From assembly GCF_013348805.1 (NCBI RefSeq), contig NZ_CP054690.1:1550001-1614000 (forward strand): a DNA stretch of 64,000 bases, read 5' to 3'. The notes under the pieces were generated by a model. It made no database searches. It was not told where the DNA came from and saw only the letters and a program-made list of their open reading frames with translations. Positions 18,318 through 34,300 of this stretch are shown here, in pieces (the first letter of the stretch is position 1; each line of letters begins with the position of its first letter). The DNA is from Rhodococcus sp. W8901 (GTDB lineage: Bacteria; Actinomycetota; Actinomycetes; Mycobacteriales; Mycobacteriaceae). The position numbers and the translations under genes were made by a program.

Positions 18318-18401
18318 GGGCTTTCTCCTTCGTTCGGATCCTTTGTTCGGGTAACACCGAACAGAATGCCCGGTACGTACGACAGCAACGTGATGAAGAT
18401 T

Positions 18402-18417
18402 GATAACCGGGGTTATC
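18402..18417. promoter_or_regulatory. Palindrome GATAACCGGGGTTATC, copy 1, upstream of the modification operon
   Basis: GATAACC and GGTTATC face each other around a 2-base centre, 102 bases upstream of the fusion gene start and 84 bases upstream of the divergent RNase H-like gene. The same site, with one base changed, lies upstream of hsdR at 31247-31262. Candidate operator for a shared regulator. Confidence 0.65.
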
Positions 18418-18445
18418 GACGCTCGCTCGTGCATTTGGGGCGGGG

Positions 18446-18460
18446 CGATCGGCCCGATCG
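18446..18460. promoter_or_regulatory. Inverted repeat CGATCGG / CCGATCG near a possible -10 box
   Basis: A 7-bp perfect inverted repeat around one base, followed three bases later by TAGATT (18463-18468), a plausible -10 hexamer about 50 bases before the ATG at 18520. It may mark the promoter of the modification operon and a second binding site. Confidence 0.35.
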
Positions 18461-18519
18461 GATAGATTGCTCGGGCGGCCGTCGACCGAGGCCGGATCGA
18501 GGTGGGGGGAGTCCGACGC

Positions 18520-20595
18520 ATGCGCGAGTCAGAACAGTCACCCCTTCTCCTCACCCGGCCGGACATCGCGAAGCTCGCCAAGGTGCAGCGCCCGGTCGTC
18601 ACCGCATGGGCACAGAGGTACTGCGGCGATGATCGCCCTTTCCCGAGGCCGACCGTCGTCGACGGTGTCCTGGACAAGTTCGATGCCGACGAGGTGGTCG
18701 AGTGGCTGCGGTCGCGAGGCCTCGGTAACAACATCTCCTTCGCTGAGGACGTCGCGATCCATGCCGCGCTGGACCACAAGACCTCAATGCACCCACACGC
18801 GGTGATCGACGGCATCACGGCCCTGCTGGCCGTCAAAGTGATGTTGGGGGAGCGTCTCGGTGATCTCACGCCCGACGACCTGCTCGACGAGGTCGAAGAG
18901 CTCGACCCCGACAACGAGTTTCTCTGTGATGAGCTCGAGGCCCTCGGCGACGAACTCGCCACCTTTGCGCGGTACACGGATCGGATGTCCGACGCCGCGT
19001 TCACTTCGGTCGATGCGTTCGAGGCAGTGATGGCGCGCCGTTTCCGGATGCAGCGACCCGAACTGTCCGACAGTGCCCTCGGCGCTGCGGCGTTGTCTCT
19101 GGGAGCACGAGTGAGTGTCGCACTCGCGGAAGACACCGACACGCTGTTCATCGATCCGGCGCCGGCGAGTACCGACTTGCTGATCGCGCTGCGAGCCGCA
19201 TTGCCCGAGTACGCGGAGCCGACCGTCATGACGGGAGGTTCGTCCACTCCGACTGCGCGCCTGGCGCTGCGGCGGCTCGCGGTGCACGGGTTGCGGCGCG
19301 AGAGTCTGCCGGAGGAGGGGTTCGGGGCGGACTTCAGCGTCGACCGTCCGGCGGTGTTTCTGACGCAGTACCCGTCGTCGTCCACGACTGGCTACACGGA
19401 CGTCGACATCCTCGCGGAGATCGAGAACATCTCGTTGCAGATGGGTCCGGGGCAGAGCGCGGTGATCATCGGCCCGGCGGCGACGTTTGCCGACCCGCTA
19501 CGTGAGCGGGAAGCCGAAGCGCTGCGTTCGGATCTGCTGCGCTCGGGTCACCTGCGTGCAGTCGTCCGGCTGTCGGAGGGGTTGCTTCCCTCGCGGCCGG
19601 GTCTGTCGATGGCCCTGTGGGTACTGGGCGCGGTGGACCGAACGATTCCGGCCGCCGCTCGGCGCACGGTGTTGGCCGATCTCAGCGCTGTCGAGCTCAC
19701 CGACGACGTCATCGACGGAGTGATCGCCGACGTCACTGCCGCGATGGGTCCGTGGGAGTCCGTGCGTGCACACGCCTTTCGCTTTGGCCACTTCTACAAG
19801 ACTGCGGAACTGCTCGCCGCAGGCGGGGTGCTCACGGCGAAGCCGAAGGTGCATCGTCCTCCGGTCGACGCCGGTGAGGCCGCGGCACGTGTGCTCGAAC
19901 TGGTGGGTGCGCTCGACAGCGCTGCCGGACTTGTCGATGGTGGGCTCGATCTGCGGGTCGAATACCGGACGACGAGGCGCCCGCGGTTCCAGACGGCCGG
20001 AGAACTGGCCGCCGCGAAGGAGCTCCGGGTGCTGCCCGGTAACCGGATCGATGCCATCGATATCGAGGCGCGCGGTTCGGTGCCGGTGATCGGTACCGAC
20101 GAGATCCTCGGTCGCTGTGAAGTCGGATCGCGGGGCATCGACCGTCTGACGTTCGTCACCGACTACCCCAGTGGCCGCTACACCGAGCCGGGCGACATCG
20201 TGTTCTGCACTAGCCCGTCGTTCGGGGTGATCGTCGACGTCGAGGGGTCGTCGGTGGTGATGTGGCCGGCCCGGATCCTCCGAATCGCGGACGTGGGCGC
20301 TTCCGGGCTGGTACCCGAACTCGTTGCGCGGCATCTGCAGAGCCGCAGGGTGGGGGCCAAACCGCCGGGCGCGATCCGCAGCGGATCGGCTTGGAAGACC
20401 TGGGAGATCCCGCGAGTGCAGGCCGATCAGGTGGGTGCGGTCACTGCCGCGCTCGCCGACCTCCGGGAGCGTCGGGCGGCTGCCCGACGGCTGCTCGGCA
20501 CCCTCGAAGACTTGACCACCACGCTGGTGGACGGCGTGGCGCACGGAGCGCTCACCGTCGCACCGGCACCACAGACCGTCACAGAGAAAGGCTGA
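18520..20595 (+). CDS. HTH / degenerate N6-adenine methyltransferase / S-like fusion, accessory to type I RM
   Basis: A 691-residue protein in three parts. Residues 10-65 form a helix-turn-helix of the AlpA/MerR kind (LTRPDIAKLAKVQRPVVTAWAQR). Residues 70-375 follow the HsdM layout but lack its catalytic motifs: the SAM loop reads IDPAPASTDLL at 211-221 and the NPPF site reads LTQYPSS at 281-287, while the late HsdM stretch survives as HLRAVVRLSEGLLPSRPGLSMALWVLG. The last 200 residues resemble a target-recognition half of HsdS (GDIVFCTSPSFGVIVDVEGSSVVMWP). ATG 18520 has GGGGGAG 8 bases before it. It lies 2 bases before hsdM. A DNA-binding control or specificity role is inferred. Confidence 0.72.
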   Translation: MRESEQSPLLLTRPDIAKLAKVQRPVVTAWAQRYCGDDRPFPRPTVVDGVLDKFDADEVVEWLRSRGLGNNISFAEDVAIHAALDHKTSMHPHAVIDGITALLAVKVMLGERLGDLTPDDLLDEVEELDPDNEFLCDELEALGDELATFARYTDRMSDAAFTSVDAFEAVMARRFRMQRPELSDSALGAAALSLGARVSVALAEDTDTLFIDPAPASTDLLIALRAALPEYAEPTVMTGGSSTPTARLALRRLAVHGLRRESLPEEGFGADFSVDRPAVFLTQYPSSSTTGYTDVDILAEIENISLQMGPGQSAVIIGPAATFADPLREREAEALRSDLLRSGHLRAVVRLSEGLLPSRPGLSMALWVLGAVDRTIPAAARRTVLADLSAVELTDDVIDGVIADVTAAMGPWESVRAHAFRFGHFYKTAELLAAGGVLTAKPKVHRPPVDAGEAAARVLELVGALDSAAGLVDGGLDLRVEYRTTRRPRFQTAGELAAAKELRVLPGNRIDAIDIEARGSVPVIGTDEILGRCEVGSRGIDRLTFVTDYPSGRYTEPGDIVFCTSPSFGVIVDVEGSSVVMWPARILRIADVGASGLVPELVARHLQSRRVGAKPPGAIRSGSAWKTWEIPRVQADQVGAVTAALADLRERRAAARRLLGTLEDLTTTLVDGVAHGALTVAPAPQTVTEKG

Positions 20596-20597
20596 CG

Positions 20598-22211
20598 ATG
20601 CCATCGAGGAAGAAGTCTGCGGTCTCCGCGCCGTCGACGATGAAGGAACTCAAGGACACTCTGTGGAAGGCCGCGGACAAGCTGCGCGGGTCCATGGACG
20701 CCTCGCAGTACAAGGACGTGATCCTCGGGCTGGTGTTCCTCAAGTACGTCTCCGACGCGTTTGACGAGCGCCGCGGCCAGATCCGTGAGGAGCTGCTGGC
20801 GGAGGGGATGAACGAGGATCAGATCGCGACGCTGATCGACGACGAGGACGAATACCTCGGCAGCAGTGTCTTCTGGGTTCCGGAGCCGGCGCGGTGGAGC
20901 TTCCTTGCGGAGAACGCGAAGGGCATTCAGGAAGCTGTCGGTGTCGAGGGACGCACGGCCGGTGAGCTGATCGACGCTGCGATGCGTGAGCTGATGGCAG
21001 CCAATTCGACTTTGGCGGGCACGCTTCCGACGATCTTCAATAACCAGAGCGTCGACCAGCGCCGGCTCGGTGAACTGATCGACCTGTTCGGCGACACCCG
21101 CTTCACCGGTCACGGCGCGACGAAGGCGCGGGACCTGCTGGGTGAGGTGTACGAGTACTTCCTCGAGAAGTTCGCGCGTGCGGAGGGTAAGCGCGGCGGC
21201 GAGTTCTACACGCCCGCCGGGGTGGTGCGGGTACTGGTCGAGATGCTCGAGCCGTACAGCGGTCGTGTGTACGACCCGTGCTGTGGTTCGGGTGGCATGT
21301 TCGTGCAGACCGAGAAGTTCGTGGAGCGGCACGGCGGCAACCCCACCGAGGTGGCGGTGTACGGCCAGGAGCTCAACGAGCGCACGTGGCGGATGGCGAA
21401 GATGAACCTCGCGATCCACGGCATCACCGGCAACCTCGGGGACCGCTGGGAGGACACGTTCGCCCAGGACAAGCATCCGGACCTGTTGGCAGACTTCATC
21501 CTTGCCAATCCGCCGTTCAACATCAAAGACTGGACACGCAAGGAAGACGACAAGCGCTGGAAGTTCGGCGTTCCCCCGGCGGGCAACGCGAACTACGCGT
21601 GGATCCAGCACATCATCTCGAAGCTCGCCGAGCGTGGCAGCGCCGGTGTCGTCATGGCCAACGGGTCGATGTCGTCGAATTCCGGTGGCGAGGGCGAGAT
21701 CCGGGCGCAGCTGGTGGAGGCCGACCTGGTCTCGTGCATGATCGCGCTGCCCACACAGCTGTTCCGCAGCACCGGAATCCCGGTGTGCGTGTGGTTCTTC
21801 GCGAAAGACAAGGCTGTCGGGCCGAAGGGCAAGATCGACCGCCAGGGCCAGGTTCTGTTCATCGATGCCCGCAACCTGGGCTACATGGTCGACCGCGCCG
21901 AGCGGGCGCTGAGCGACGACGACATCGCCAAGATCGCTGGCACGTTCCATGCCTGGCGCGGAACGGGATCTGCTTCCGGTGCTGTCTATGAGGACGAACC
22001 CGGCTTCTGCTACTCGGCCACTCTCGCGGAGATCAAGGAAGCGGACTACGCCCTCACTCCGGGCCGGTACGTCGGCGCTGCTCCGATTGAGGACGACGGC
22101 GAACCGATCGCAGAGAAGCTGGAGCGGTTGACCAAGGAACTGTTCGAGCAGTTCGACGAGTCGGCGCGATTGCAAGCCGTCGTGCGCGAGCAGTTGGGGA
22201 GGGTGTTGTGA
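20598..22211 (+). CDS. hsdM: Type I restriction-modification methyltransferase subunit HsdM
   Basis: HsdM methylates adenine in the target site and forms the core of the type I complex. The 537-residue protein has the N-terminal HsdM helical domain (ELKDTLWKAADKLRGSMDASQYKDVILGLVFLKYVSDAF), the entry motif RGGEFYTPAGVV at 199-210, the SAM-binding DPCCGSGGMF at 226-235 and the catalytic NPPF at 304-307. The ATG at 20598 follows the fusion-gene stop by 2 bases with AAAGG just before it. hsdS overlaps its end by 4 bases. All key residues are intact. Confidence 0.96.
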   Translation: MPSRKKSAVSAPSTMKELKDTLWKAADKLRGSMDASQYKDVILGLVFLKYVSDAFDERRGQIREELLAEGMNEDQIATLIDDEDEYLGSSVFWVPEPARWSFLAENAKGIQEAVGVEGRTAGELIDAAMRELMAANSTLAGTLPTIFNNQSVDQRRLGELIDLFGDTRFTGHGATKARDLLGEVYEYFLEKFARAEGKRGGEFYTPAGVVRVLVEMLEPYSGRVYDPCCGSGGMFVQTEKFVERHGGNPTEVAVYGQELNERTWRMAKMNLAIHGITGNLGDRWEDTFAQDKHPDLLADFILANPPFNIKDWTRKEDDKRWKFGVPPAGNANYAWIQHIISKLAERGSAGVVMANGSMSSNSGGEGEIRAQLVEADLVSCMIALPTQLFRSTGIPVCVWFFAKDKAVGPKGKIDRQGQVLFIDARNLGYMVDRAERALSDDDIAKIAGTFHAWRGTGSASGAVYEDEPGFCYSATLAEIKEADYALTPGRYVGAAPIEDDGEPIAEKLERLTKELFEQFDESARLQAVVREQLGRVL

Positions 22212-23383
22212 GTGCTCCTGTCTTGGCTCGCTACTCCCTCCCGGAGTTGTTGTCGGAGATCGTTGATAACCGTGGAAGATCCTGCCCAACAGCGGATTCG
22301 GGGATTCCGTTGATTGCAACCAACTGCCTGAAGGAAGATCAACTTTATCCTGTTTCTGAGAACATCAGGTATGTCGATCGCCAGACGTATAGCGAGTGGT
22401 TTCGAGGCCACCCGGAGCCGAACGATATTCTGTTCGTATGTAAAGGTAGTCCGGGACGGATTGCGATGGTGCCTGACCCGGTACCGTTCTGTATTGCGCA
22501 GGATATGGTCTCGCTACGGGCCGATCAGGCGAAGGTCACGCCTCGCTACCTCTACTATCTACTGAAGAACCCTGACACTCGACGCAAAATCGAGAACATG
22601 CATGTGGGGACGATGATTCCGCATTTCAAGAAGGGCGATTTCGGCAAGCTGCATCTGGATGTCCATTCGTCCCTCGCGCAACAGTGTGCTATTGCCGGAA
22701 TCCTCGGTGCCCTCGACGACAAGATCGCCGGGAATCGCAAGCTGACCGAGAAGGTTGAGGAGCTGGCTTCGATCACGTTTGCTCAGATGCTCGAAGAATC
22801 GTCGACTGTTCCTCTCTCGGCGACTGCTGACTTCGTCAACGGAAAGGCGTTCACCAAGGGTGCGAGTGGAACCGGCCGTGTTGTGGTTCGGATTGCTGAA
22901 CTGAATTCGGGTATCGGCGGGTCGACTGTGTTCAGTGACATCGAGGTCGACGACAAGTTCGTCGCGCGGGCAGGAGACATCCTTTTCGCTTGGTCGGGCT
23001 CGTTGACCCTGCATCGGTGGTTCCGTGACGACGCCATTGTGAACCAGCACATCTTCAAGGTGATTCCTGCAGAGGGATACCCATCGTGGTTGGTCTATCA
23101 GCTGATTCAGCGGAAGCTGCAACAGTTCAAGGACATTGCCGCGGACAAGGCCACGACGATGGGACACATCCAGCGCCGCCACCTGGACGAGTTGGTCGAG
23201 GTCCCCTCCCGCTCTGTCATTGAGCAGCGCGATTCGTTCATGACTGCGTTGTGGGAACGTGCGCTGCTTGCTGAACAGGAATCCGAGACCCTCGCCGCCA
23301 CCCGCGACGCGCTGCTTCCACGTCTGATGTCTGGGGAACTTCGCGTCCGTGATGCGGAACGTCAGGTCGAAGCGGTGCTGTGA
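22208..23383 (+). CDS. hsdS: Type I restriction-modification specificity subunit HsdS
   Basis: HsdS reads the two halves of the DNA target. The 391-residue protein has two target-recognition domains, each followed by a conserved helix: LAQQCAIAGILGALDDKIAGNRKLTEKVEEL near 160-185 and VIEQRDSFMTALWERALLAEQESETLAATRDALLPRLMSGEL near the C terminus. GTG 22208 overlaps the hsdM stop (GTGA). The first target domain (22250-22600) is visibly richer in A and T than its neighbours, as expected of exchangeable specificity cassettes. The stop overlaps the following DUF6508-like reading frame by 4 bases. Confidence 0.94.
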   Translation: MSAPVLARYSLPELLSEIVDNRGRSCPTADSGIPLIATNCLKEDQLYPVSENIRYVDRQTYSEWFRGHPEPNDILFVCKGSPGRIAMVPDPVPFCIAQDMVSLRADQAKVTPRYLYYLLKNPDTRRKIENMHVGTMIPHFKKGDFGKLHLDVHSSLAQQCAIAGILGALDDKIAGNRKLTEKVEELASITFAQMLEESSTVPLSATADFVNGKAFTKGASGTGRVVVRIAELNSGIGGSTVFSDIEVDDKFVARAGDILFAWSGSLTLHRWFRDDAIVNQHIFKVIPAEGYPSWLVYQLIQRKLQQFKDIAADKATTMGHIQRRHLDELVEVPSRSVIEQRDSFMTALWERALLAEQESETLAATRDALLPRLMSGELRVRDAERQVEAVL

Positions 23384-23854
23384 GCGACGAGGCGCGAACG
23401 GACGCGGGGCAGCCAGGGATCGTCGAATCCGGGGCCCCACAAGTGATCGCCGACCTCGACCGAGAAGCCTGGGCGCGCGCAGCTTCGGTCGCTTGTCGAG
23501 CGGATCGATACGCGTTGGCCCGCGGACGGATCGAACTTCCGCGCCGCCCCGTGGGACCGTGAAGACGTACCCGATCCGCTCGTGGAAGAGGTCGTGAGCT
23601 TTCTCCATGACCACGATCTGATCGTCACCGATTTCGATCGGGCCGCGTTGAATCGGGTGGGAAACCGGCTGGACCTGATGGGCATGCGGAATCTTGCCCC
23701 GCAACTCGGTCCCACCGAGATTCTCGGGATGATCGCCAGCACCATCGGCGTCGATCGCACATCGGAGCGGGCGACCCACAACGCGCTGGAGTTCGGCTTG
23801 CTGCCGCCGCTCCTGGAACGTCTGCTCGACTTCCGACCAGAAGAGAGTCGCTGA
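23380..23854 (+). pseudogene. DUF6508-like protein, interrupted by a +1 frameshift
   Basis: From the GTG at 23380 (overlapping the hsdS stop) the frame runs through DREAWAR and then ends at 23562. One base later in phase, the sequence reads AQLRSLVERIDTRWP and continues to a stop at 23854, ending PPLLERLLDFRPEESR, with no start codon until a GTG at 23582. Dropping one base from the GGGCGCGCGC stretch near 23471-23480 gives a continuous 157-residue protein that aligns with the next gene: QLRSLVERI/ELRMLVERI, DPLVEEVVSFLHDHDLI/DPLVDESVRWLDSKGLL, and PTEILGMIASTIGVDR/VAEVLGLLTRLVLADR. It may be a decayed gene, a programmed shift or a sequencing error. Function unknown. Confidence 0.7.
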
Positions 23855-23904
23855 ACGTTCGGGGTACTCGCTGATTGCACACTGAGAGGTGGGGGGGACA
23901 GGCA

Positions 23905-24357
23905 ATGACCGATCAGAACTTCCGGACACCGGAAGGCGTCCTGGCCGCACTGCACTCGCAGGACATCGCGGAGTTGCGGATGCTCGTCGAACGAATTCGA
24001 CTGCACGAAGGCGAATTCGGATACGTGAAGCGTTCAGAGCCGACCCGGGCGGGCGCCCTGGGATTCGGGTACACGGTCGAGGACCCGCTGGTCGATGAGT
24101 CGGTGAGGTGGCTCGACTCGAAGGGTCTCCTGGATCGCGCTTTCGTCGGTGCTGCCGAGCCGGCGGTCGGGCGGCTGCCCGAGCGCGGAGACGTCGGCCC
24201 AGTCGTGGCTGCTTTCGATGTCGCCGAGGTGCTGGGTCTTCTGACGAGACTGGTTCTCGCTGATCGATTCTGCGAGGGAGCGCTCGTCGGCGTCTTTGAC
24301 AACGGAACGATGCCGGCTCTGTTCGATCGTCTGGTCGTGTTGGTCACGGAGTCGTAG
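23905..24357 (+). CDS. DUF6508-like protein
   Basis: A 150-residue soluble protein. The C-terminal LLTRLVLADRFCEGALVGVFDNGTMPALFDRLVVL matches, from memory, the DUF6508 pattern (LLT-x-RFCEG-x-ES/DNG). That family has no known function but is often seen beside restriction-modification genes. It is the intact paralogue of the frameshifted frame just upstream. ATG 23905 follows a G-rich leader (GGGGGGGACAGG) ending 3 bases before it. It is probably the last gene of the modification operon, 50 bases after its paralogue, and may be a modulator of the RM complex; that role is inferred. Confidence 0.72.
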   Translation: MTDQNFRTPEGVLAALHSQDIAELRMLVERIRLHEGEFGYVKRSEPTRAGALGFGYTVEDPLVDESVRWLDSKGLLDRAFVGAAEPAVGRLPERGDVGPVVAAFDVAEVLGLLTRLVLADRFCEGALVGVFDNGTMPALFDRLVVLVTES

Positions 24358-24449
24358 GCGCGACACCCGCGCGAAATGTCAGTGGCGCCTGTCACAATCA
24401 CATCCGAATCGAAGGGCAATCTAGCCCTTCCCTGCGCAGCACCAGGAAG

Positions 24450-25208
24450 ATGATGAACGCCGTAATTCCGTATCTTCGCGTCCTCGCCGGATTCTTCGCC
24501 GGAGTCGTGACCTGGCTGGCGATCGTCAGCCTCGTGCAACTCGACTTCGGCTCCGTCGGGATCTCCCTGATCATGGCGGCGGGCCTGTGGTATCTCGCCG
24601 TCGGTCGACCGATTCGCAACCACTTCGCCAGGATCAAGGCCGAGAAGGACGCCCTGGCCGCCCGCGCCCAGGCCGGGCACGAGGCGTTCCTTGCCGGCGA
24701 TACGTCCGCGGCCTTCGCCCCGCCGCCGGAGGCGCCAACGAAGCAGCCTGTTCGCCGGGGTGTCGTCATCGCATCCGCAGTGGCTGCTGCGTTCGTCCTG
24801 ATCGGGATCATCGGCGACATCAGCGATGGACTCGACCATGACTCGTCGACGGAGGACACCAGCAGAACGCCCGCGACGCTGGCACCGCCACCCGCGGTCC
24901 CCGCCGCCCCGGCCGGGCTGGCGCCGCTCGCACCGCAGCCGACCTCGGCGGCGTCGGCCGGTCGGGGAGCTGCCCAGGCATTGATGCCGAACGTGAAGTG
25001 CATGAATCTGCAGAAGGCGCAGGACACGATCCAGGAGGCCGGAGTCTTCTACTCCCGGAGCGAGGATGCGACCGGTAAGGGCCGGATGCAGATCTCGGAT
25101 CGCAATTGGGTGGTCGTGGAGCAACGCCCCGCAGCGGGCACTCCGATCGCCGAGGGTGATGCCGTGCTAGCGGTGGTCAAGTACGGGGAGCCCGGGGACT
25201 GCTCCTGA
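24450..25208 (+). CDS. Membrane protein with C-terminal PASTA-like domain
   Basis: A 252-residue protein. It has two hydrophobic segments near the N terminus (about 8-27 and 33-51), a basic cytoplasmic loop, a third membrane segment (about 104-124), a Pro/Ala-rich linker, and a C-terminal domain MPNVKCMNLQKAQDTIQEAGV ... WVVVEQRPAAGTPIAEGDAVLAVVKYGE of about 65 residues. That domain follows the PASTA pattern and carries two cysteines (CMN and the final CS) that could form a disulfide outside the cell. ATG 24450 and ATG 24453 are both possible starts. It lies between hsdS and hsdR without an obvious link to restriction. Confidence 0.75.
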   Translation: MMNAVIPYLRVLAGFFAGVVTWLAIVSLVQLDFGSVGISLIMAAGLWYLAVGRPIRNHFARIKAEKDALAARAQAGHEAFLAGDTSAAFAPPPEAPTKQPVRRGVVIASAVAAAFVLIGIIGDISDGLDHDSSTEDTSRTPATLAPPPAVPAAPAGLAPLAPQPTSAASAGRGAAQALMPNVKCMNLQKAQDTIQEAGVFYSRSEDATGKGRMQISDRNWVVVEQRPAAGTPIAEGDAVLAVVKYGEPGDCS

Positions 25209-25254
25209 GGCGTCCCGTTGACGAAGCTGGCACCAACACAGGGGGGATTGAGGA

Positions 25255-26154
25255 TTGGCAAGTTCGATGGACGATCTGGATGAACTGCTGAGTCGGGCGC
25301 GAGGTGCCGCGCGGGCATTGTCCGACGAGCTCGAGTTTGCGCTCGCGCTCGTCCTGGAAGAGGAATCCCTCGAGGTCGACCTCCAGTCGCGCGTACGGGC
25401 CTGGAACCGTGCCCGCACCGAACTCGCGATGGCCGTGTTCGGCGAATCCACACTGCCGGCGGGCGGGCTGGCGGCCTGTGAGACCGCCATCGTCGACCGT
25501 CGTCGCGCGGTGCAACTCGAAGAGGAGTATCAGCAGGCGAAGGCGGAGCTCGTCTATCTCGAGCAGTCTCCCAGTGGGCTTGCGAGTGAACTCGCGGCGC
25601 TGCTCGACAGCAAGAGTGAGCGGGTAGCGAAACTCGAAGCCGAACTGTCTGCCATTCAGCCGCCCAAACCCGTGCAACCGCCGAAACCCGTGCAACCGGC
25701 CAGGCCTGCTCCGGTGGTGCAGTCGAATCCCAAACCGGCCCCGCCGGTACCGGTTCCACAGACGCAGGCGAAACCGACGACGACGCCGGTGCCGAAGCCC
25801 GCTCCGGCGCCGCAGCCGAAACGGTGTGGAGTGTGCCTGGTCGTCAAGAACCTGTCGCGGTTCGAGTCCGGCTGGCGCTGTGCCACATGCCTGCACCTGG
25901 AGAAGGAGATCGCTTCGGCCCGAAGAGCCCTTGCCGCGCTCGGAGCGCCGCCGTTGGAGAAGGCGGTGCCGAGCGAGGTTCCTGGGATGGCGAAGATCCG
26001 CGCGGAGGGTCGCGACGCGATTCATGCACTCGCCTCAAGACACCGCCAGCTACCCACACCCGTGCCGTCCCGGGCGGTGACCGGCCCGCCGCGGAAGATG
26101 CCGCAGAAGGCGGCAACCGCGCTCGGCAAGCAACGGCGGAACGGGTCTCGCTGA
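25255..26154 (+). CDS. Coiled-coil protein with proline-rich linker and zinc ribbon, unknown function
   Basis: I do not recognise this 299-residue protein. Residues 1-140 are helical and charged, with coiled-coil character. Residues 143-195 are a proline-rich linker with PPKPVQ repeats. A zinc ribbon follows: CGVC, 14 residues, CATC (about 198-219), and then a basic C-terminal tail. No membrane segment or signal is seen. The TTG at 25255 has GGGGGGA 7 bases upstream; an ATG at 25267 is possible. The same C-x2-C-x14-C-x2-C spacing occurs in the protein encoded at 44499-45176, with the domain order reversed. Confidence 0.68.
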   Translation: MASSMDDLDELLSRARGAARALSDELEFALALVLEEESLEVDLQSRVRAWNRARTELAMAVFGESTLPAGGLAACETAIVDRRRAVQLEEEYQQAKAELVYLEQSPSGLASELAALLDSKSERVAKLEAELSAIQPPKPVQPPKPVQPARPAPVVQSNPKPAPPVPVPQTQAKPTTTPVPKPAPAPQPKRCGVCLVVKNLSRFESGWRCATCLHLEKEIASARRALAALGAPPLEKAVPSEVPGMAKIRAEGRDAIHALASRHRQLPTPVPSRAVTGPPRKMPQKAATALGKQRRNGSR

Positions 26155-26192
26155 TCGAGAACCGGCCCGGCCAAGGATAAGTGGGGGACAGG

Positions 26193-26342
26193 TTGGACGA
26201 AGCTGACGATCGCCGCACCGATGCCGAAGCGCTCGCCGCGGGCATGCACGTCGACAAGGAGCGCGTCGCCGAGATCGCGCGTCGAGTGGCGCAGCGCTCG
26301 GCAGAACTGAACCGACGCCTCGCCCAGGGGTCGGGCGAGTGA
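26193..26342 (+). CDS. Small helical protein of about 49 residues
   Basis: A short reading frame with a biased, highly charged product (DEADDRRTDAEALAAGM..., ending RRLAQGSGE) that should form a long helix. TTG 26193 is preceded by the leader GTGGGGGACAGG, nearly the same as the leader before the ATG at 23905; a GTG at 26181 in the same frame is an alternative. It ends 51 bases before the HNH gene. Codon third positions are strongly G/C, which supports coding. Confidence 0.45.
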   Translation: MDEADDRRTDAEALAAGMHVDKERVAEIARRVAQRSAELNRRLAQGSGE

Positions 26343-26393
26343 GAACGCGGCAAACGCCTGAGATTGTCGGAGGGCTCCACTAGAGTCGAAAGC

Positions 26394-27962
26394 ATGTTCG
26401 ATACGGGGGTGTTGGCTGAGGCGGCGGACGCGGATGTGGCCGCCGTCCTCGTCGAGCGGCACGCCCGTATCGCGCGTGAACAGTTCAGTGAGATCGATGC
26501 GGTGACAACGCTGTTCGTCACCCGCTGCGAAGAGGATGCGCGTCTCGGTAGGAACGAGGCGCACCACGGCGAGTTCGCGCACGTCGAGGTGGCCGGCCTC
26601 CTCGGGCTCACTGAGGTGTCCGCCCGGCGAATGATCGGGCTCGGCTGTGACCTGCGGTGGCGACTGCATCAGGTTCGTGCCCAGTTCCAGGCTGGGCGGA
26701 TCGACCTCGCGAAAGCCCACGCGCTGTCGGAGGCGCTGGCGAATGTCTCCGACGACAAGCTGGAGAAGATCGAGCGCTGCCTGCTCGACGGTGCGGCGCA
26801 GTCGACCACCACGCGACTGAAGGAGCGTGCCCGACGTCTGATTGCGAGGCTCGACCCTGACGGCGCGCGAGAACGGCGCCGACGTGCTGTCGAGGACCGC
26901 GACGTGAGAGTAATTGCTGGCGACCACGCGATGTCGCACCTGGACGGACTGCTGCCCGCCGAGGGCGGTCGCATCCTCGCAACCCGACTCCGGGCCATGA
27001 GCTTCGACGTCTGCGGACACGACCCACGGACCCATGCGCAGCGCCGGGCAGACGCGCTCGTCGCTCTCGCCGCCGGCCACACCCACCTCGAGTGCCGCTG
27101 CGGCAGCGTGGATTGCACCGCCCGCACCGACACCACAGCGAAGAACCGCGCCGGCGTCCAGGTACAGGTGCTCGTCGGAGTCGATGCGTCGACACTGCTG
27201 GGACTCGACGACGCCCCCGGGTACCTGTCGGGACACGGCGCGATAGACGCCGATCTGGCCCGCGAACTCGCTGCGGACGCCACGTGGAAGCAGGTCCTGA
27301 CGCTTTCCGCGGCAGATCGAGCCAGGCTCACCGGCGACAGCAACACCGGGCCGGTGCTCGGGATCGGACCGACACTTCCGTCCCCCGAACAATCTCCACA
27401 ATCGCTCGCTTCCAGAACGCGAGAACGATTGCGGGCAACAACCTATCGTCCGAGCTCCCAATTGGCGGACATCGTCAGGACACGGGACGGCGTGTGCCGC
27501 TTCCCGAACTGCGCCGCGCCCGCCACCGCATGCGACCTCGACCACACGGTCCCGTTCGATCATGAGAACCCGGATCGCGGCGGGCTCACCGTCGAGTCGA
27601 ATCTCGCGTGCCTGTGCCGGACCCACCACCGGATCAAGACCCTCGGCTACTGGACCGTCCGCCAAGTCGGGCAAGGCCGGCTCGAGTGGATCGATCCCAC
27701 CGGTCGGACCAGCGTGACATATCCGCAAGGACCGTTCTCCGATTCGGACCCGCAACCGACTCTCAGCGCCGGGCTCGATTCCCGACTCGTCGATCGGCTC
27801 ACCGACTCACGAACCCTTGCACGGCTCCGGTACTCGAAAGCCGAACTCGACCTCGACTATCTCGTCGAAAGCTGGTTCCCCGCAAGCCTTCGAGGGCGTC
27901 GAGCCGCGCCGCCACCGGAGCCGCCCACGGTCGTCGAGTGCGACGACACCGCGCCCTTCTGA
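26394..27962 (+). CDS. DUF222 - HNH endonuclease (13E12 repeat family)
   Basis: A 522-residue protein of the actinobacterial 13E12 family. The N-terminal DUF222 helical region includes ARLGRNEAHHGEFAHVEVAGLLGLTEVSARRMI. The HNH nuclease motif near residues 360-410 reads VCRFPNCAAPATACDLDHTVPFDH, then NLACLCRTHHRIKT, with the metal-binding cysteines and histidines present. Such genes are multi-copy in mycolic-acid actinomycetes, sometimes mobile, and of unclear role. ATG 26394 has no strong binding site (TCGAAAGC). Here it lies inside the region between hsdS and hsdR. Confidence 0.88.
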   Translation: MFDTGVLAEAADADVAAVLVERHARIAREQFSEIDAVTTLFVTRCEEDARLGRNEAHHGEFAHVEVAGLLGLTEVSARRMIGLGCDLRWRLHQVRAQFQAGRIDLAKAHALSEALANVSDDKLEKIERCLLDGAAQSTTTRLKERARRLIARLDPDGARERRRRAVEDRDVRVIAGDHAMSHLDGLLPAEGGRILATRLRAMSFDVCGHDPRTHAQRRADALVALAAGHTHLECRCGSVDCTARTDTTAKNRAGVQVQVLVGVDASTLLGLDDAPGYLSGHGAIDADLARELAADATWKQVLTLSAADRARLTGDSNTGPVLGIGPTLPSPEQSPQSLASRTRERLRATTYRPSSQLADIVRTRDGVCRFPNCAAPATACDLDHTVPFDHENPDRGGLTVESNLACLCRTHHRIKTLGYWTVRQVGQGRLEWIDPTGRTSVTYPQGPFSDSDPQPTLSAGLDSRLVDRLTDSRTLARLRYSKAELDLDYLVESWFPASLRGRRAAPPPEPPTVVECDDTAPF

Positions 27963-28024
27963 GCCCGGTGCATCGAGCCGCGGAAGGGCCGAGGCGACTC
28001 CCTATCCGCCGCGACGATTTCCTA

Positions 28025-29833
28025 TCAGCCCAGCCATCCCTGGGGGCCCCACACCGAACCCGGGTGATCGCGCTCCGCCAGCGCCGAGAACACGGCGGTC
28101 AGCTCCTCGTAGTCGGCGTCGTCGAAGAACCTATCGAAGATGAGCTGCGCGACGTTGTCCATGAGGTCGAGCGGCAGCGCGATACCGTGCACGGTCGCCA
28201 CATGCAGGCCGGCGAGGATCGCCTCGTACGGTTCGCCGCAGGATGCGGTGTTCCGGACCAAGCGCACCAGCTGATCCGGCGCCGAATCCACTGCCTTGCA
28301 CAGGTCGTTCGCCGTCGGAATCACCAGATTCCTCGGATAGTCGTCAGGCAGTTCGTTGAACACCACTCCGTCGCCGCTCAGCGGATACGCGGTGACCACA
28401 CGTGGCTCCTCGTCCGGCCGGCGCCGCCACACCACGCACACCCAGACACCGTCGAACTCGCGTTCGTCGAACACCGTCCAGCCGATGACCGTCCGCGATT
28501 GCGGTTCTACCGTCGTCGACTCGATCCGGGCCATCACCGTCTCCCGGGACCAGGTGGCGGGAAACTCCGTCTTGCCGGGAAGCCCGACCCCCGATCCGTG
28601 CCCGCCGGCGGGAGGGCGGTGCAGGGCTGCGACGAAGTCCTCCGCGAGTTCCCGCGACGTGGGGGTCGCGACGGGCTCGGGGTGTTCCTCGGTCCAGTCC
28701 TCCACAGAGTTGCGCCGCAGCCATTCCTGCGGTCCGAGATCGGCGATCTCGTCCGCGAACAGGCTGACGACCGGCAGCGGGTGCGCGTGCGCGGGTGCGC
28801 CCAGTCGGTCGCAGAGAGCGCGGATGCCCTCGTGCGGCACGACCACGCGATACACCGGTTCCGACAGCACCGGGACGGAACCGGAGTCGTACGCCGCAAA
28901 CTCGAACCCGTCCCTGCCCGCGCCGATGAAGAGCTTCCGGCCGTCCGGATCCGGACCGATCCCGTGGAAGGTGGCGTCCACTTCGGCGGGGCACTGCACG
29001 CCGAGCGTGTCGTGCCGCGTCGTCCTCGGATGGGCGCCGGATGTTCGATCCGCCTGCCAGAGAACCAGATCGAGGAAGAGCTCGCGGACCAGGCGTCGAT
29101 CGTCCGCGTCGAGATCCTGTGCCTGCACTTGCGCGAGGACTGGACTGTCGTCGACCCCCGACGGCCGAAACAGCGCGTCGTGAGCATCGCACCACCCCGC
29201 GACAGTGCCACCGGCGCTGTCGATCACCGCCTGGATGACTGCCACCCGATCGGCCTCTCGAAAGTTGTTCCGGCCCAGCGGCTCGACGCGCACGGAGGAC
29301 TCGGGAATCAGCCTCCAGCCCGTGTATGGCCCGATACTTTCCCGCACCCGAGGATCGGTCCGTTCGTCAGGCTTGACGAAGTGATCCCAGATGTCGTGCG
29401 CACTCGCCGGCCGGGCATCGAGCAGGCCACTGTGATCGTCGAGCCTGTCGAGCAGTTCGTCGAGTACTTCCCGGGTCGGGACTGCGGTATAGCGGCGTGG
29501 ATCCTCGCCCCGGGGCCAGACGCCGTCGACGCCGGTGAGGTGGTAGACGACCTCCGGGTCGGGTGAGGCTACCAGCGCGTCGTCGTTGAGCATTGTGATC
29601 TCGATGCGGTCGGCCGCCGGCTGCGCGAGATGCAGCCAGAGCGCGCAGGCGTCGGAATAGTGGAACGCCGATGCCGCAGATTCGACGGCCGCAGCATGCG
29701 GCGCGGAGATCGAACTGGGCCGCACCGCTCCGCTGGCACCCCAGCGCGCAGGATTGTGTGTGTGGACGATTCCGCGCCGCGGTCCCACGGCGTACTCCAG
29801 TGTGGCGATGCGTTCGGCGGCCGAGCCGGTCAT
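28025..29833 (-). CDS. Large protein with an EndoU-like nuclease segment, otherwise unknown
   Basis: A 602-residue acidic protein with no signal peptide or membrane segment. I do not recognise residues 1-415. Residues 420-490 (GKTEFPATWSRETVMARI ... GVWVCVVWRR ... VVTAYPLSGDG) follow the pattern of EndoU-like toxin nucleases, as I recall it: GK-x-EFP-x-x-WS, then a strand, then T-x-YP. Residues 495-602 form a helical tail. In polymorphic toxins this domain is C-terminal and exported; here it is internal and apparently cytoplasmic. ATG 29833 has GGGGAGG 7 bases before it. A nuclease role is tentative; it could be a defence effector. Confidence 0.55.
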   Translation of the reverse strand: MTGSAAERIATLEYAVGPRRGIVHTHNPARWGASGAVRPSSISAPHAAAVESAASAFHYSDACALWLHLAQPAADRIEITMLNDDALVASPDPEVVYHLTGVDGVWPRGEDPRRYTAVPTREVLDELLDRLDDHSGLLDARPASAHDIWDHFVKPDERTDPRVRESIGPYTGWRLIPESSVRVEPLGRNNFREADRVAVIQAVIDSAGGTVAGWCDAHDALFRPSGVDDSPVLAQVQAQDLDADDRRLVRELFLDLVLWQADRTSGAHPRTTRHDTLGVQCPAEVDATFHGIGPDPDGRKLFIGAGRDGFEFAAYDSGSVPVLSEPVYRVVVPHEGIRALCDRLGAPAHAHPLPVVSLFADEIADLGPQEWLRRNSVEDWTEEHPEPVATPTSRELAEDFVAALHRPPAGGHGSGVGLPGKTEFPATWSRETVMARIESTTVEPQSRTVIGWTVFDEREFDGVWVCVVWRRRPDEEPRVVTAYPLSGDGVVFNELPDDYPRNLVIPTANDLCKAVDSAPDQLVRLVRNTASCGEPYEAILAGLHVATVHGIALPLDLMDNVAQLIFDRFFDDADYEELTAVFSALAERDHPGSVWGPQGWLG

Positions 29834-29874
29834 GCTTGTTCCTCCCCTTGATCTGCTTTACGAAATATGTCGGT

Positions 29875-29908
29875 GCGGGCGCGGGCACCCCCCAGCGCTC
29901 GCGCCCGC
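29875..29908 (-). terminator. GC-rich hairpin after the DUF4352 gene
   Basis: GCGGGCGCG (29875-29883) pairs with CGCGCCCGC (29900-29908) around a 16-base loop. It lies 13 bases beyond the stop of the gene ending at 29922 and before the next minus-strand start, with no long T tract, as is usual in actinomycetes. Confidence 0.6.
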
Positions 29909-29921
29909 CCGATCGGGCCCT

Positions 29922-30608
29922 CTACTGGAGGGCGACTCGTGAGCCGCTCGAGAACATCGAGTCGTGCAGTTCCATCTCGGCCGGCGCGGTGTCGGCGGGC
30001 ATGTCGTAGACGACCTTCATCGTCACCTTGTTGCCCGGGTTGATTTCGTCCCAGACCGAGACGTCCGAGTCGAGGGCGATTCCCGCCGACGTGTCGGCGG
30101 TGAACTTGCGCCCCTGGGAGTCGTACAGCTCCTGGTCGCTCGGGCTCAGTCCCTTCGGCTTGTCCGAGGTGTTCTGCACAGTCATCGTCACGATCACGAA
30201 CTGTCCCTGCGCCTTCTTGGTGAGGAACGGGTTGTCGCCGACAGTGCCGAGCCCCGTCTCGACGTCCGTGACGACGAACTCGAACTTGCCGTCACGGACC
30301 GGTGCGTTCAATCCGGGCAGGGCCTTCTTCGCGGCCGGTGCCGGTGCCGGTGCCGGTGCGGGTGCGGGTGCCGCCGGAGCCGCGGGTGCTGCCGCGTCGA
30401 CCGCGACGACGTCTGCTGCCGCTGCCTGACCGTCGGCGGGTGTCGCGTCGTCCTTGCCGTTGCTGATCGCGCTGATCACCACGACGGCGGCGATGGCACC
30501 CACCACCCACGGCCACTTCTTGGACTTCTTCTTCGGCGGCTGGACCGCCGGGGGAGTGGCCGGGAACTGGTTGGGCTGTCCGGGCAGGGGATTCTGGGGA
30601 GCGGTCAT
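29922..30608 (-). CDS. DUF4352-type membrane-anchored protein
   Basis: A 228-residue protein: a Pro/Gln-rich cytoplasmic head ending PPKKKSKK, one membrane segment at about 33-48, an Ala/Pro linker with repeated AP dipeptides (about 75-92), then an immunoglobulin-like domain of DUF4352 type (FEFVVTDVETGL ... GQFVIVTMTVQNTSDKPKGLSPSDQELYDSQGRKFTAD). Such domains sit outside the membrane and are of unknown role (telokin-like fold). GAAAGG lies 6 bases before ATG 30608. It is followed by a hairpin terminator. Confidence 0.8.
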   Translation of the reverse strand: MTAPQNPLPGQPNQFPATPPAVQPPKKKSKKWPWVVGAIAAVVVISAISNGKDDATPADGQAAAADVVAVDAAAPAAPAAPAPAPAPAPAPAAKKALPGLNAPVRDGKFEFVVTDVETGLGTVGDNPFLTKKAQGQFVIVTMTVQNTSDKPKGLSPSDQELYDSQGRKFTADTSAGIALDSDVSVWDEINPGNKVTMKVVYDMPADTAPAEMELHDSMFSSGSRVALQ

Positions 30609-30652
30609 GGTCGACCTTTCTGATGGATGTCGAATGGGATGGAAGCTGGGCG

Positions 30653-31171
30653 TCAGTCGCCCAGTGAGAGCGCGACGCCGTTCTCGGCTTCGGCTTCGGT
30701 GAAGGACAGGCCGCCGCGGTGGGCGATCTCGACCTCGTAGAACTTGCTGCCGCGCGGGACATCGGTGACGGTGAAGTCGAAGATGCAGTAGCCGGAGCTG
30801 CCGCTGCTGCCGGTGAAGTGGCCCTTCGCCAGCAGGGTTCCGGACTCGTCCGAAACCGTCACCGCCGCAGAGGAAGACAGATCGCTGTATCCGCCGGCCC
30901 CGGCACACGTGAATCCGGTCGGAAGTCCGCTCGAGGTGGTCTTGCCCGTGAGCGTGATCATCCCGGTGATGTCGAACGAGCCGGGTGCGCTCGCGGCCCG
31001 GACGGCGGTGACGACACCGAACGCGATGCCGACTGCCGCCGCGGTCGCGGCGACGCCGGCACTCAGTCCGATCCAGAACGGCCGCTTGCCCGACGGCTGC
31101 GTCGACGGGGTGTCGACGACGGTCGTTCCAAGCGGATCGGACGAGGGCTCGGGCCCGAGAAAAGCGGTCAC
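30653..31171 (-). CDS. Single-pass membrane protein of unknown function
   Basis: I do not recognise this 172-residue protein. A 30-residue polar head with Thr and Pro is followed by one membrane segment (about 33-57) and an extracytoplasmic domain with two cysteines (FTCAGAGG and GYCIFDFTV) that may form a disulfide. Its layout is close to the DUF4352 gene 44 bases downstream on the same strand, so they probably form an operon. GTG 31171 has GGGAG about 6 bases before it. It is divergent from hsdR, and the hsdR-side palindrome is in the shared region, 76 bases upstream. Confidence 0.65.
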   Translation of the reverse strand: MTAFLGPEPSSDPLGTTVVDTPSTQPSGKRPFWIGLSAGVAATAAAVGIAFGVVTAVRAASAPGSFDITGMITLTGKTTSSGLPTGFTCAGAGGYSDLSSSAAVTVSDESGTLLAKGHFTGSSGSSGYCIFDFTVTDVPRGSKFYEVEIAHRGGLSFTEAEAENGVALSLGD

Positions 31172-31246
31172 AACGGACTCCCTGGTTCGGTTGAGGTGAT
31201 GACCACATCGTGAGGACCGGAGAAGCGCAATGCCAAAGAGATTCCT

Positions 31247-31262
31247 GATAACTGGGGTTATC
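31247..31262. promoter_or_regulatory. Palindrome GATAACTGGGGTTATC, copy 2, upstream of hsdR
   Basis: This differs by one base from the site at 18402-18417. Flanking bases extend the symmetry to CTGATAAC / GTTATCAG. It ends 85 bases before the hsdR start. Two copies 12.8 kb apart, one before the modification genes and one before the restriction gene, point to a shared regulator. Confidence 0.65.
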
Positions 31263-31347
31263 AGAGGTGGCGATTTGACCTTCGATGGCCATTGCGGGTG
31301 CCCGGTACTGTTTGCCCTGTTGTGTTGTTGTGAGGGAGGACATAGCA

Positions 31348-34300
31348 GTGATCGAAAGCCGCGCGCTGACCGAGAACGACTGGGAGCAGATGGCCCTCGA
31401 CGTTCTCGGTGAACTCGGGTGGAGGCCCACTGCGGGAGCGGACATCGCGCCCGGTTCGGGTGAACGGGCATCGTGGGACGAGCTTCTGATCGTGCCGCGC
31501 CTGCGCGCGTCGATCGCGCGGTTCAATCCGCAATTGCCCGACCACGTCGTGGACGAGGCCGTCGCCGCCGTCGCGACGGCAGGGTCGACCGATGCCATCG
31601 CGGAGAACGAGGCGATCCACCAGTTCCTCACCGAGGGGCTCCGGAAGATCACCTACGTCGACGAGTCGGGTGAGGAGATCACCCCGACCATCCGGCTGCT
31701 GTCGGCGGAACCCGACGACAACGACTGGCTCGCGGTCAACCAGGTGACGCTGGTGAAGGGCGACTATCACCGGCGATTCGACGTCGTGCTGTACCTGAAC
31801 GGGATGCCGGTCAGCGTCATCGAGCTCAAGAAGGCCGGAGCCGAGAACGCCGGCCTGGTCCAGGCGCACGCACAGCTGCGGACGTATCTGAAGGAGTTCC
31901 CGCTCGCCTTCAGGTTCGCTGTCTTCAACGTGATCTCGGACGGAATCACCGCGCGGTACGGAACGCCGTTCACGCCCTTCAACCACTTTTCGCCCTGGAA
32001 CGTCGACGACTACGGCACCCCCGTCACGACCGAGACCCTCACCGACGGCACGACGCCGCTCGACACCGCGCTGTACGGACTGTTCAACCAGGAACGCTTC
32101 CTGCAGCTGCTCCGCCACTTCACCGCCTTCGACCGGGACGAGAACGGTCTGCTGAAGCGGATTGCCAAGCCGCACCAGTACTTCGCGGTGAGCAAGGCGG
32201 TCGGCAAGACGGTGCAGGCGGTGGCCAGCAACGGCAAGGCCGGCGTCGTGTGGCACACCCAGGGCTCGGGCAAGTCCATGGAGATGGAGTTGTACGCCAA
32301 CCAGGTGATCCGACACCCGGCGCTCGCCAACCCGACGGTCGTGGTGATCACCGACCGCACAGAACTCGATGGCCAGCTCTACGAGACGTTCCTGCGGTCG
32401 CGGCTGCTTCCCGAACAGCCGCAGCAGGTGCGCAAGCGCGAGGAGCTCCGGCAGGAACTGTCCGGCCGTACCACCGGTGGCATCTACTTCACCACGTTGC
32501 AGAAGTTCGGTCGCACCAAGGACGAGCGGGATTCCGGTGCCAGCCATCCACTCCTGACCGCCCGCCGCAACGTCATCGTCGTCGTGGACGAGGCGCACCG
32601 CAGTCACTACGACAACCTCGACGGCTACGCACGACACCTGCGCGACGCACTGCCTCACGCCACGTTGATCGCGTTCACCGGTACGCCGATCTCGTTCGAG
32701 GACCGCAATACTCGCGACGTCTTCGGCGACTACATCGACATCTACGACCTGACCCGGGCCGTCGAAGACGGCGCCACCGTTCCGGTCTACTTCGAGAGCC
32801 GGCTCGTGAAGGTGTCCTTCGCCGAGGATGTTTCGGAACAGGATCTGGATGCGTCGGCCGACGAGGCGACCATCGGGCTCGACGACACCGAACGTGATCG
32901 CATCGAGAAGAGCGTGGCGGTCATCAACGCCGTCTACGGTGCCCCTGCCCGGCTGAAGAAGCTCGCAGCGGACATCGTCGAGCACTGGGAGATCCGGCGG
33001 GCCGCGATGCGTGCCTTCGTCGATTCCGAGGACAACCCGACCGCCACGGGCAAGGCGATGATCGTCGGAGCCACCCGCGAGATCTGCGCCAACCTGTATC
33101 GGGAGATCGTGGCGCTGCGTCCCGACTGGCACACCGACAGTCTGTCCACCGGCAGGATCAAGGTCGTCTACTCCGGAAACCCCAGCGACGAGCCGCCGAT
33201 CAGCGACCACGTGCGTCGCGACTCCGAGAACGCCGCGATCAAGAAGCGCATCAAGGACATCGACGACGAACTCGAACTCGTCATCGTCAAGGACATGATG
33301 CTCACCGGCTTCGACGCGCCGCCGCTGCACACGATGTACCTCGACCGGCCGCTCAAGGGCGCCCTGCTGATGCAGGCGCTGGCGCGGGTGAACCGCACCT
33401 TCCGCGGCAAGCAGGACGGCCTGCTCGTCGCGTACGCGCCGTTGGCCGACAATCTCGCGCACGCGCTGGCCGAGTACACGGAGACGGATCAGCAGCAGAA
33501 GCCCATGGGGCGCGACATCGACGCCGCCGTCGACACCGCGAAGAACCTCATCACGATCATCGAGAACATCCTGCACGGCTTCGACTGGCGGTCGCAGCTT
33601 CAGAAACCCGGTCCGCGAGCCTACTTCGATGCCGCCAATGCGACAGTCAACTATCTGAGGGATCCGCGCAATCCCGAGAACCAGGTGGGGGAGGGTGAGG
33701 AGACCCTCGCGGCCCGCTACCGCAAGTTCGCGTCGCAACTCTCGCGGACCTGGGCCATCTGCGGTAGCCACGAGGCGCTCCGCGAGCAGGCCCCGATCGC
33801 GCAGTTCTTCGAGGAAGTGCGCATCTACATGGCCAAGTGGGATGCGGAGGAACGCTACGCGCGTGGTCAGGCCGTGCCCGAGGACGTCCAGCGGGCACTG
33901 CGGCAGCTGATGGCGGCGTCGGTCGAATCCGGTGAGGTCCTCGACATCTACGACGCGGCCGGGATGCCGAAGCCCTCGTTGGGTGACATCAATGTCGATT
34001 TCATCCGCAAGGCGCAGGAAGCGAAGAACCCCAACCTCGCGATCGAGGCGTTGCGGAAGCTGATCAACGACGAGGCGCAGAAGGCCGCCAAGCACAACGT
34101 GATACGGCTCCGCGCCTTCTCGGAGAAGCTCCAGTCGTTGATGGTGAAGTACACCAACAGTCAGCTCACCTCCGCCGAGGTGATCGCCGCGCTCGTCGAG
34201 ATGGCGAAGGAGGTGGCCGCCGAATCGGATCGAGGCAACCGATTCACGCCGCCGCTCGACGACAACGAGCTCGCGTTCTACGACGCTGTCGCACAGAACG

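Follow-up and report, generated by a model that had tools for sequence, protein, structure and literature searches.

A 64,000-nucleotide (nt) stretch of the Rhodococcus sp. W8901 genome (contig NZ_CP054690.1, positions 1,550,001 to 1,614,000; hereafter the window) contains a type I restriction-modification (RM) locus in two separate units, and nearly the same 16-bp palindrome precedes each of them, GATAACCGGGGTTATC before an operon that encodes a fusion protein, HsdM and HsdS, and GATAACTGGGGTTATC before hsdR. This arrangement raises the question of whether a single regulator serves both units and, if so, which protein it is and in which direction it acts. We consider it likely that the palindromes serve as operators for the product of the gene at position 18520, a former type I enzyme that would activate its own operon and the separate hsdR. 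As judged from sequence and structure comparisons, this protein combines a winged helix-turn-helix (HTH), a type I HsdM fold without the catalytic NPPF motif, and an HsdS-like C-terminus.

A palindrome before both halves of a split locus

The elements on which the argument depends are as follows, in window coordinates.

18402..18417, no strand: putative operator 1, GATAACCGGGGTTATC, before the fusion-hsdM-hsdS operon
18463..18468, forward strand: predicted -10 box TAGATT, 45 nt after operator 1
18520..20595, forward strand: fusion regulator of 691 residues (HTH, pseudo-HsdM and HsdS-like C-terminus)
18544..18720, forward strand: winged HTH of the regulator, residues 9-67
18589-18618, forward strand: predicted recognition helix, residues 24-33, with V26 and V27
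18733..19854, forward strand: pseudo-methyltransferase module, residues 72-445, type I HsdM fold with QYPS for motif IV (NPPF)
19996..20559, forward strand: HsdS-like target-recognition domain and long C-terminal helix, residues 493-680 (hhalign E 6.4e-6, probability 85)
20598..22211, forward strand: hsdM, catalytic motifs kept, beginning 2 nt past the regulator stop codon
22208..23383, forward strand: hsdS (Pfam/PADLOC)
23384..31246, no strand: hsdS-hsdR interval of ~8 kb with unrelated-looking genes, partly common to close relatives
31247..31262, no strand: putative operator 2, GATAACTGGGGTTATC, upstream of hsdR
31306..31311, forward strand: predicted -10 box TACTGT, 43 nt after operator 2
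31348..34539, forward strand: hsdR, GTG start after GAGGGAGGA (Pfam/PADLOC)

The two palindromes were where the initial annotation had placed them, with 102 bases between the first and the ATG at 18520 and 85 bases between the second and the GTG at 31348. At up to 3 mismatches these were the only matches in the window (including the same two on the other strand), and 100 shuffles of the window gave a mean of 0.24 matches and a maximum of 2. Within the whole genome (1 contig, 5,713,496 bases) the strict pattern GATAACNNNNGTTATC was found only at these two places, so that GATAAC-N4-GTTATC occurs exactly twice in 5.71 Mb, one copy standing in front of the modification operon and the other in front of hsdR; the expectation that a dedicated site would have few genomic copies was thus borne out. 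The palindromic part is GATAAC/GTTATC, and the 4-base middle differs among genomes. With 1 mismatch allowed, the degenerate motif GATAASNNNNSTTATC (GATAAS-N4-STTATC) gave three extra genomic places, compared with 2 for a reversed-pattern control, and one of these three, that at 5,564,305, matches the degenerate motif with no mismatch. Around 5,564,305 no RM gene was recognised among the open reading frames, where no family search was made, and no TANNNT box was present at the distances typical of the operators (see below), which makes this place unlike a promoter of this type.

The same annotation had named conservation at orthologous loci as a test of its idea, and the site is indeed conserved there. 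A search of 301 genomes of the family found the regulator in 42 and hsdR in 51. Upstream regions of 400 bp were read for 41 of the 42 family regulators, the partial regulator of G261 being left out, and 39 of these contained the operator at ≤2 mismatches (0 mismatches in 21, 1 in 15 and 2 in 3), while among 4,300 dinucleotide shuffles none matched without mismatch, 3 matched with 1 and 58 with 2; the degenerate motif was derived from the same family set in which it was counted. The regulator was also present in 21 of 394 genomes of the class, of which G000 and G223 belong to the family set as well, and among the 20 homologues in the 19 further genomes the operator lies within 300 bp upstream of 18. 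For hsdR the motif was found in 27 of 46 upstream regions, a set from which we left out G186, G208, the second copies in G021 and G283, and the distant ones of G262, G071 and G150; the hsdR of G116, with only 95 bases upstream, was scored as a miss, and a site at a contig end may be its own, unjoined. The hsdR genes of G096, G243, G157 and G207, genomes in which the regulator was not found, had no operator.

Whether hsdR has its own site appears to go with its distance from the regulator. A number of relatives have hsdR immediately behind hsdS or at most a few kb from it, and there it lacks a separate site; where regulator and hsdR share a contig, a separate hsdR operator was found in 16 of 18 loci at least ~6 kb apart and in 3 of 14 loci with a nearer hsdR (Fisher p 2e-4, ignoring kinship and with the ~6 kb cut-off picked after seeing the data). 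When 28 loci were scanned whole at ≤1 mismatch, the motif was confined to these promoters, apart from two loci in which it also stands in front of an RmuC gene. An RmuC-family gene lies directly upstream of the regulator in Actinocorallia populi and in G154 (Pfam E 7e-88 and 3e-93), with its own operator copy and a TANNNT at 34 nt (L136:8099-9918 and L104:8781-10603), and is a possible extra member of the regulon.

In the window the type I set is present and intact (hsdM, hsdS and hsdR by Pfam/PADLOC: N6_Mtase, HsdM_N, Methylase_S, HSDR_N and T1RH-like_C). Because an RNase H family gene at 17454-18320 (Pfam 1.5e-13) diverges from the regulator, operator 1 lies between two divergent genes, and operator 2 likewise lies between divergent genes, 30656-31171 and hsdR. 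The genes at 23384-31246 include two DUF6508-like genes, a PASTA gene, a DUF222 gene with a weak HNH match, a weak EndoU match and others, partly common to near relatives and less so to farther ones.

Promoter geometry and the direction of control

A TANNNT box was first spotted by eye in alignments and was then counted over 83 operator-bearing promoters, leaving out G416 and a chance match at the hsdR of G046. The box follows the operator by 33-34 nt in 56 promoters, by 32-35 nt in 62 and by 43-45 nt in 10; over 1,000 shuffles the 33-34 nt distance occurred a mean of 1.4 times, with a maximum of 6. After thinning to <50% identity, 45 of 59 promoters had the box at 32-35 nt and 3 at 43-45 nt. 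The ten promoters with the longer distance, five of fusion genes and five of hsdR, all belong to a single clade of five genomes that includes the window, with none outside it, and the shift of 10-11 nt in this clade amounts to one helical turn at both promoters of the same genomes. In a related hsdR group of nine genomes the box stands 6-7 nt before the ATG, as would be expected of leaderless transcripts; the ATG in G230 is out of frame with the hsdR coordinates we used, which start at residue 30 of a partial match. A -35 consensus was not seen, with ≤0.11 bit at any position 31 to 16 nt before the box and a best TTGACA match averaging 2.74 of 6 versus 2.57 when shuffled.

The combination of operator and box extends to loci that played no part in defining motif or spacing: an operator at ≤1 mismatch and a TANNNT at 32-34 nt were found in five of five, namely on plasmids of Paenarthrobacter ureafaciens, of Arthrobacter U41 and Hiyo8 and of Streptomyces anthocyanicus, and in Actinocorallia populi (a sixth locus, of Streptomyces sp. 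M92, duplicates the DNA of G425 and was not counted). Five plasmid records have the gene order regulator, M, S, R, with two other genes between S and R in Hiyo8, where regulator, M and R are annotated in pieces; each of the five annotates the regulator as 'hypothetical protein', and four of the five plasmids were typed as conjugative.

If TANNNT is the true -10 box, with its first T at -12, the operator would span about -61 to -46, and about -72 to -57 in the clade of the window. Sites upstream of -35 are a frequent place of activator action. MerR proteins, by comparison, bind within the long spacer that separates -35 from -10, whereas here, in 72 of the 83 promoters, 32-45 nt lie between the end of the operator and the predicted -10 box. 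We prefer activation because the spacing is phased and a -35 consensus is lacking, and both units are probably switched alike, likely by activation, because the operator is placed alike relative to -10 and is shifted by one turn in both.

The mechanism we propose is the following. A regulator derived from a type I modification enzyme, with a MerR/excisionase-like winged HTH, a dead HsdM fold and an HsdS-like end, would bind, probably as a dimer, to GATAAS-N4-STTATC just upstream of the -35 region of the regulator-hsdM-hsdS operon, and the same regulator would act on the separate hsdR unit at the operator that hsdR has for itself. Held on a fixed face and at a fixed distance, it would help RNA polymerase to initiate where a -35 box is missing, and positive feedback would raise both units together, in the way that type II controller (C) proteins raise their C and R genes. 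The operators, their conservation, the TANNNT spacing, the covariation of the HTH and the loss of motif IV are read from the sequences; from these we infer binding, dimerisation, activation and any signal that the dead module may sense. The initial annotation had suggested that one regulator times modification against restriction. The idea of one dedicated site serving both units is retained here; opposing control is not, as both promoters have the same geometry and moved together in one clade, which suggests switching in the same direction. A delay of hsdR behind the M and S genes could still follow from the build-up of the activator.

The same binder could use the same operators to repress its operon and hsdR, in the manner of RptR or HsdC, and precedent speaks for this: the two dedicated type I regulators found in the literature are described as repressors (RptR, PMC12255303; HsdC of Mycoplasma gallisepticum, which 'appears to repress' its operon), and the regulatory methyltransferases of the M.SsoII type lower the expression of their own gene (PMC3978073). 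We nevertheless regard a repressor as unlikely, since the operator ends ~33 or 43-45 nt before -10, clear of both the -10 box and the usual -35, and the phased spacing without a -35 consensus suits activation better.

The fusion protein as candidate binder

Pfam, PADLOC and NCBIfam gave no match for the regulator at the limits used. The HsdM fold of its middle part was recognised by structure comparison, which we used because the hhalign profile comparison with HsdM was weak (E 0.024, probability 2). The catalytic motif IV of HsdM is [NDS]PP[FYW]; in the segment aligned with it, none of the 58 aligned fusion proteins has this motif, and the window protein reads QYPS. HsdS consists of two target-recognition domains with conserved helices, unlike the C-terminus of the regulator, which has one HsdS-like domain with a single long helix. 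The resemblance of the HTH to MerR-type winged HTH domains consists of weak matches only. In the alignments, 4 of 21 rows were dropped for HsdM and 2 of 21 for HsdS, for doubtful or short ends. Among named regulators, the nearest one found belongs to Prescottella defluvii (85% identity), and those of Rhodococcus species come next. The regulator diverges between relatives far more than its neighbour genes do, e.g., between the window and G134 the regulators are 65% identical, compared with 93% for HsdM and 88% for HsdR, and the HsdS proteins are 32% identical. There was also a partial match (31% over 57%) between the methylase/HsdS-like part of the regulator and an unannotated phage record from a human faecal sample (MT835479.1:45678-46787).

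The initial annotation had named the HTH of this protein as the candidate binder, and covariation between the recognition helix and operator base 2 supports the suggestion. All four proteins with operators of the form GTTAAG-N4-CTTAAC have A26 and S23, and both proteins with GGTAAC operators have P27; of 595 columns, V26 is the most informative on operator base 2 and V27 the next. On a tree built without the HTH the GTTAAG proteins do not form one clade (approximately unbiased, AU, p 8e-6), with 3 base changes by parsimony. Based on these pairings, the HTH of the fusion protein appears by far the best candidate for the binder of the operator.

The HsdS-like C-terminus could instead read the palindrome, much as a homodimer of half-HsdS subunits would read a bipartite palindrome: GATAAC-N4-GTTATC resembles a type I target in two parts, the C-terminus can be aligned with HsdS, and columns 525, 528 and 538 of this end are also among the ten best trackers of operator base 2. 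The two best columns, however, sit in the recognition helix of the HTH, and GTTAAG goes with A26 and S23 in all four proteins, so that we think a reader at the HsdS-like end improbable. More remote still is the site of an unrelated host regulator that controls the locus by chance. The size of the palindrome would fit many regulator families, and, of the 259 family genomes that have no fusion protein, 27 contain the strict pattern (29 places in any context, by hand tally). Against this, the window genome has two copies only; the 42 fusion-bearing family genomes have the strict pattern 25 times, 21 of these at fusion or hsdR promoters (hand tally), while the remaining 4 comprise a place in front of an RmuC gene, another at the end of a contig and two at other positions; and the operator travels with the gene onto plasmids of other families. 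That the palindromes are chance or functionless repeats is hardly credible, for although short sites may recur and one further genomic place fits the degenerate motif away from RM genes, the operator is present in 39/41 and 18/20 upstream regions and the TANNNT spacing is fixed.

Several observations nonetheless weigh against activation of both units through the HTH. The family regulators of G046 and G063 and the class homologues of G404 and G459 have no such operator, and the hsdR of G242, 8.1 kb off, has no second one. Conversely, a 1-mismatch site precedes the hsdR of G204 (L109), in whose genome neither regulator nor hsdM was found and which encodes an orphan restriction subunit, possibly a relic; a site also precedes the hsdR of G230, a 75% complete assembly in which the regulator was not found; and two Streptomyces plasmid loci each have one extra 1-mismatch match away from the regulator. 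The conservation counts are not independent because the sequences are related. At the promoters, 11 of the 83 have TANNNT at neither distance, fixed spacing can persist by descent as well as by function, and an upstream operator alone is no proof of activation. As to the binder, A26 is present as well in G260, G404 and G459, three proteins that lack a full GTTAAG operator, and the covariation is too scant for significance because only 2 independent pairs fall on supported branches.

One may speculate on the use of the dead part of the regulator. The HsdM/HsdS module might be the sensor of the regulator, a decoy copy guarding the enzyme that it controls, an idea we put forward tentatively and hold to be rather unlikely. 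In the guise of a modification enzyme, such a module would encounter what the true enzyme encounters, be it unmodified target DNA, free HsdM or HsdS, S-adenosylmethionine, or DNA-mimic inhibitors of phages, e.g., Ocr and ArdA, and what it meets would alter the action of the HTH at both promoters. The input would more likely be subunits, cofactor or inhibitors than the target sequence, because in G134 the regulator has kept 65% identity, and HsdM 93%, with an HsdS of 32%; the C-terminus of the regulator does not seem to follow HsdS specificity.

Taken as a whole, a protein family unmatched in the libraries searched is accompanied by an operator, by promoters of fixed geometry and by a helix linked to specificity, which opens the regulation of type I restriction in Actinomycetes to direct test. 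It would be a case of an enzyme turned into a regulator of its own genes, and regulator and site are found together again in many other actinobacteria and on some actinobacterial plasmids.

Comparison with known regulators

The best-ranked matches in the openly licensed PMC literature included, by title or abstract start, no regulator composed of HTH, pseudo-HsdM and HsdS parts, and none of the M.SsoII-type enzymes, C proteins, RptR and HsdC has the architecture of the protein encoded at 18520. It differs from the ordinary HsdM and HsdS subunits of type I enzymes in having an added HTH and no motif IV, and in adjoining an intact hsdM and hsdS. From the MerR/excisionase winged HTH proteins (BldC, HiNmlR, Xis) it differs in its putative site upstream of -35. 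HsdC of M. gallisepticum similarly regulates a type I hsd operon, but is described as a C protein and acts at direct repeats, (GTGTTAN5)2 (PMC5282649). RptR of enteropathogenic E. coli is likewise a dedicated regulator encoded by the first gene of a type I RM locus, with a conserved operator; as described, however, it is a small single-domain repressor of Gammaproteobacteria (79 residues in aligned homologues), whose TAGCTA repeats overlap the -10 box (PMC12255303).

The closest known systems are the M.SsoII-type regulatory methyltransferases and the type II C proteins. M.SsoII, M.Ecl18kI and M.EcoRII resemble the regulator in the fusion of an N-terminal HTH to a DNA methyltransferase, and M.SsoII also in the quasi-palindromic operator, here a putative one, in its own promoter region and in the autoregulation, here a probable one, of the RM system; as described, the HTH and C5 methyltransferase protein lowers the expression of its own gene (PMC3978073, PMC12707154). 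Those enzymes are C5 methyltransferases, whereas the Rhodococcus protein has an N6-type HsdM fold that has lost motif IV, and an HsdS-like end; here, moreover, HsdM and HsdS are encoded separately alongside, and an operator in activator position precedes each unit. The C proteins resemble the probable mode of action here in being autogenous, with a site upstream of their own promoter and positive feedback that in this locus too would likely reach the restriction gene, and they are reported to activate and then repress from paired sites (PMC12707154, PMC6237814). At ≤1 mismatch the 28 loci scanned had one operator per promoter, a scan that a degenerate second site would escape. C proteins are described as working at a pair of neighbouring dimer sites, of which one serves activation and the other repression. 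As single-domain HTH products of small genes, they contrast with the 691 residues and three modules of the regulator encoded here.

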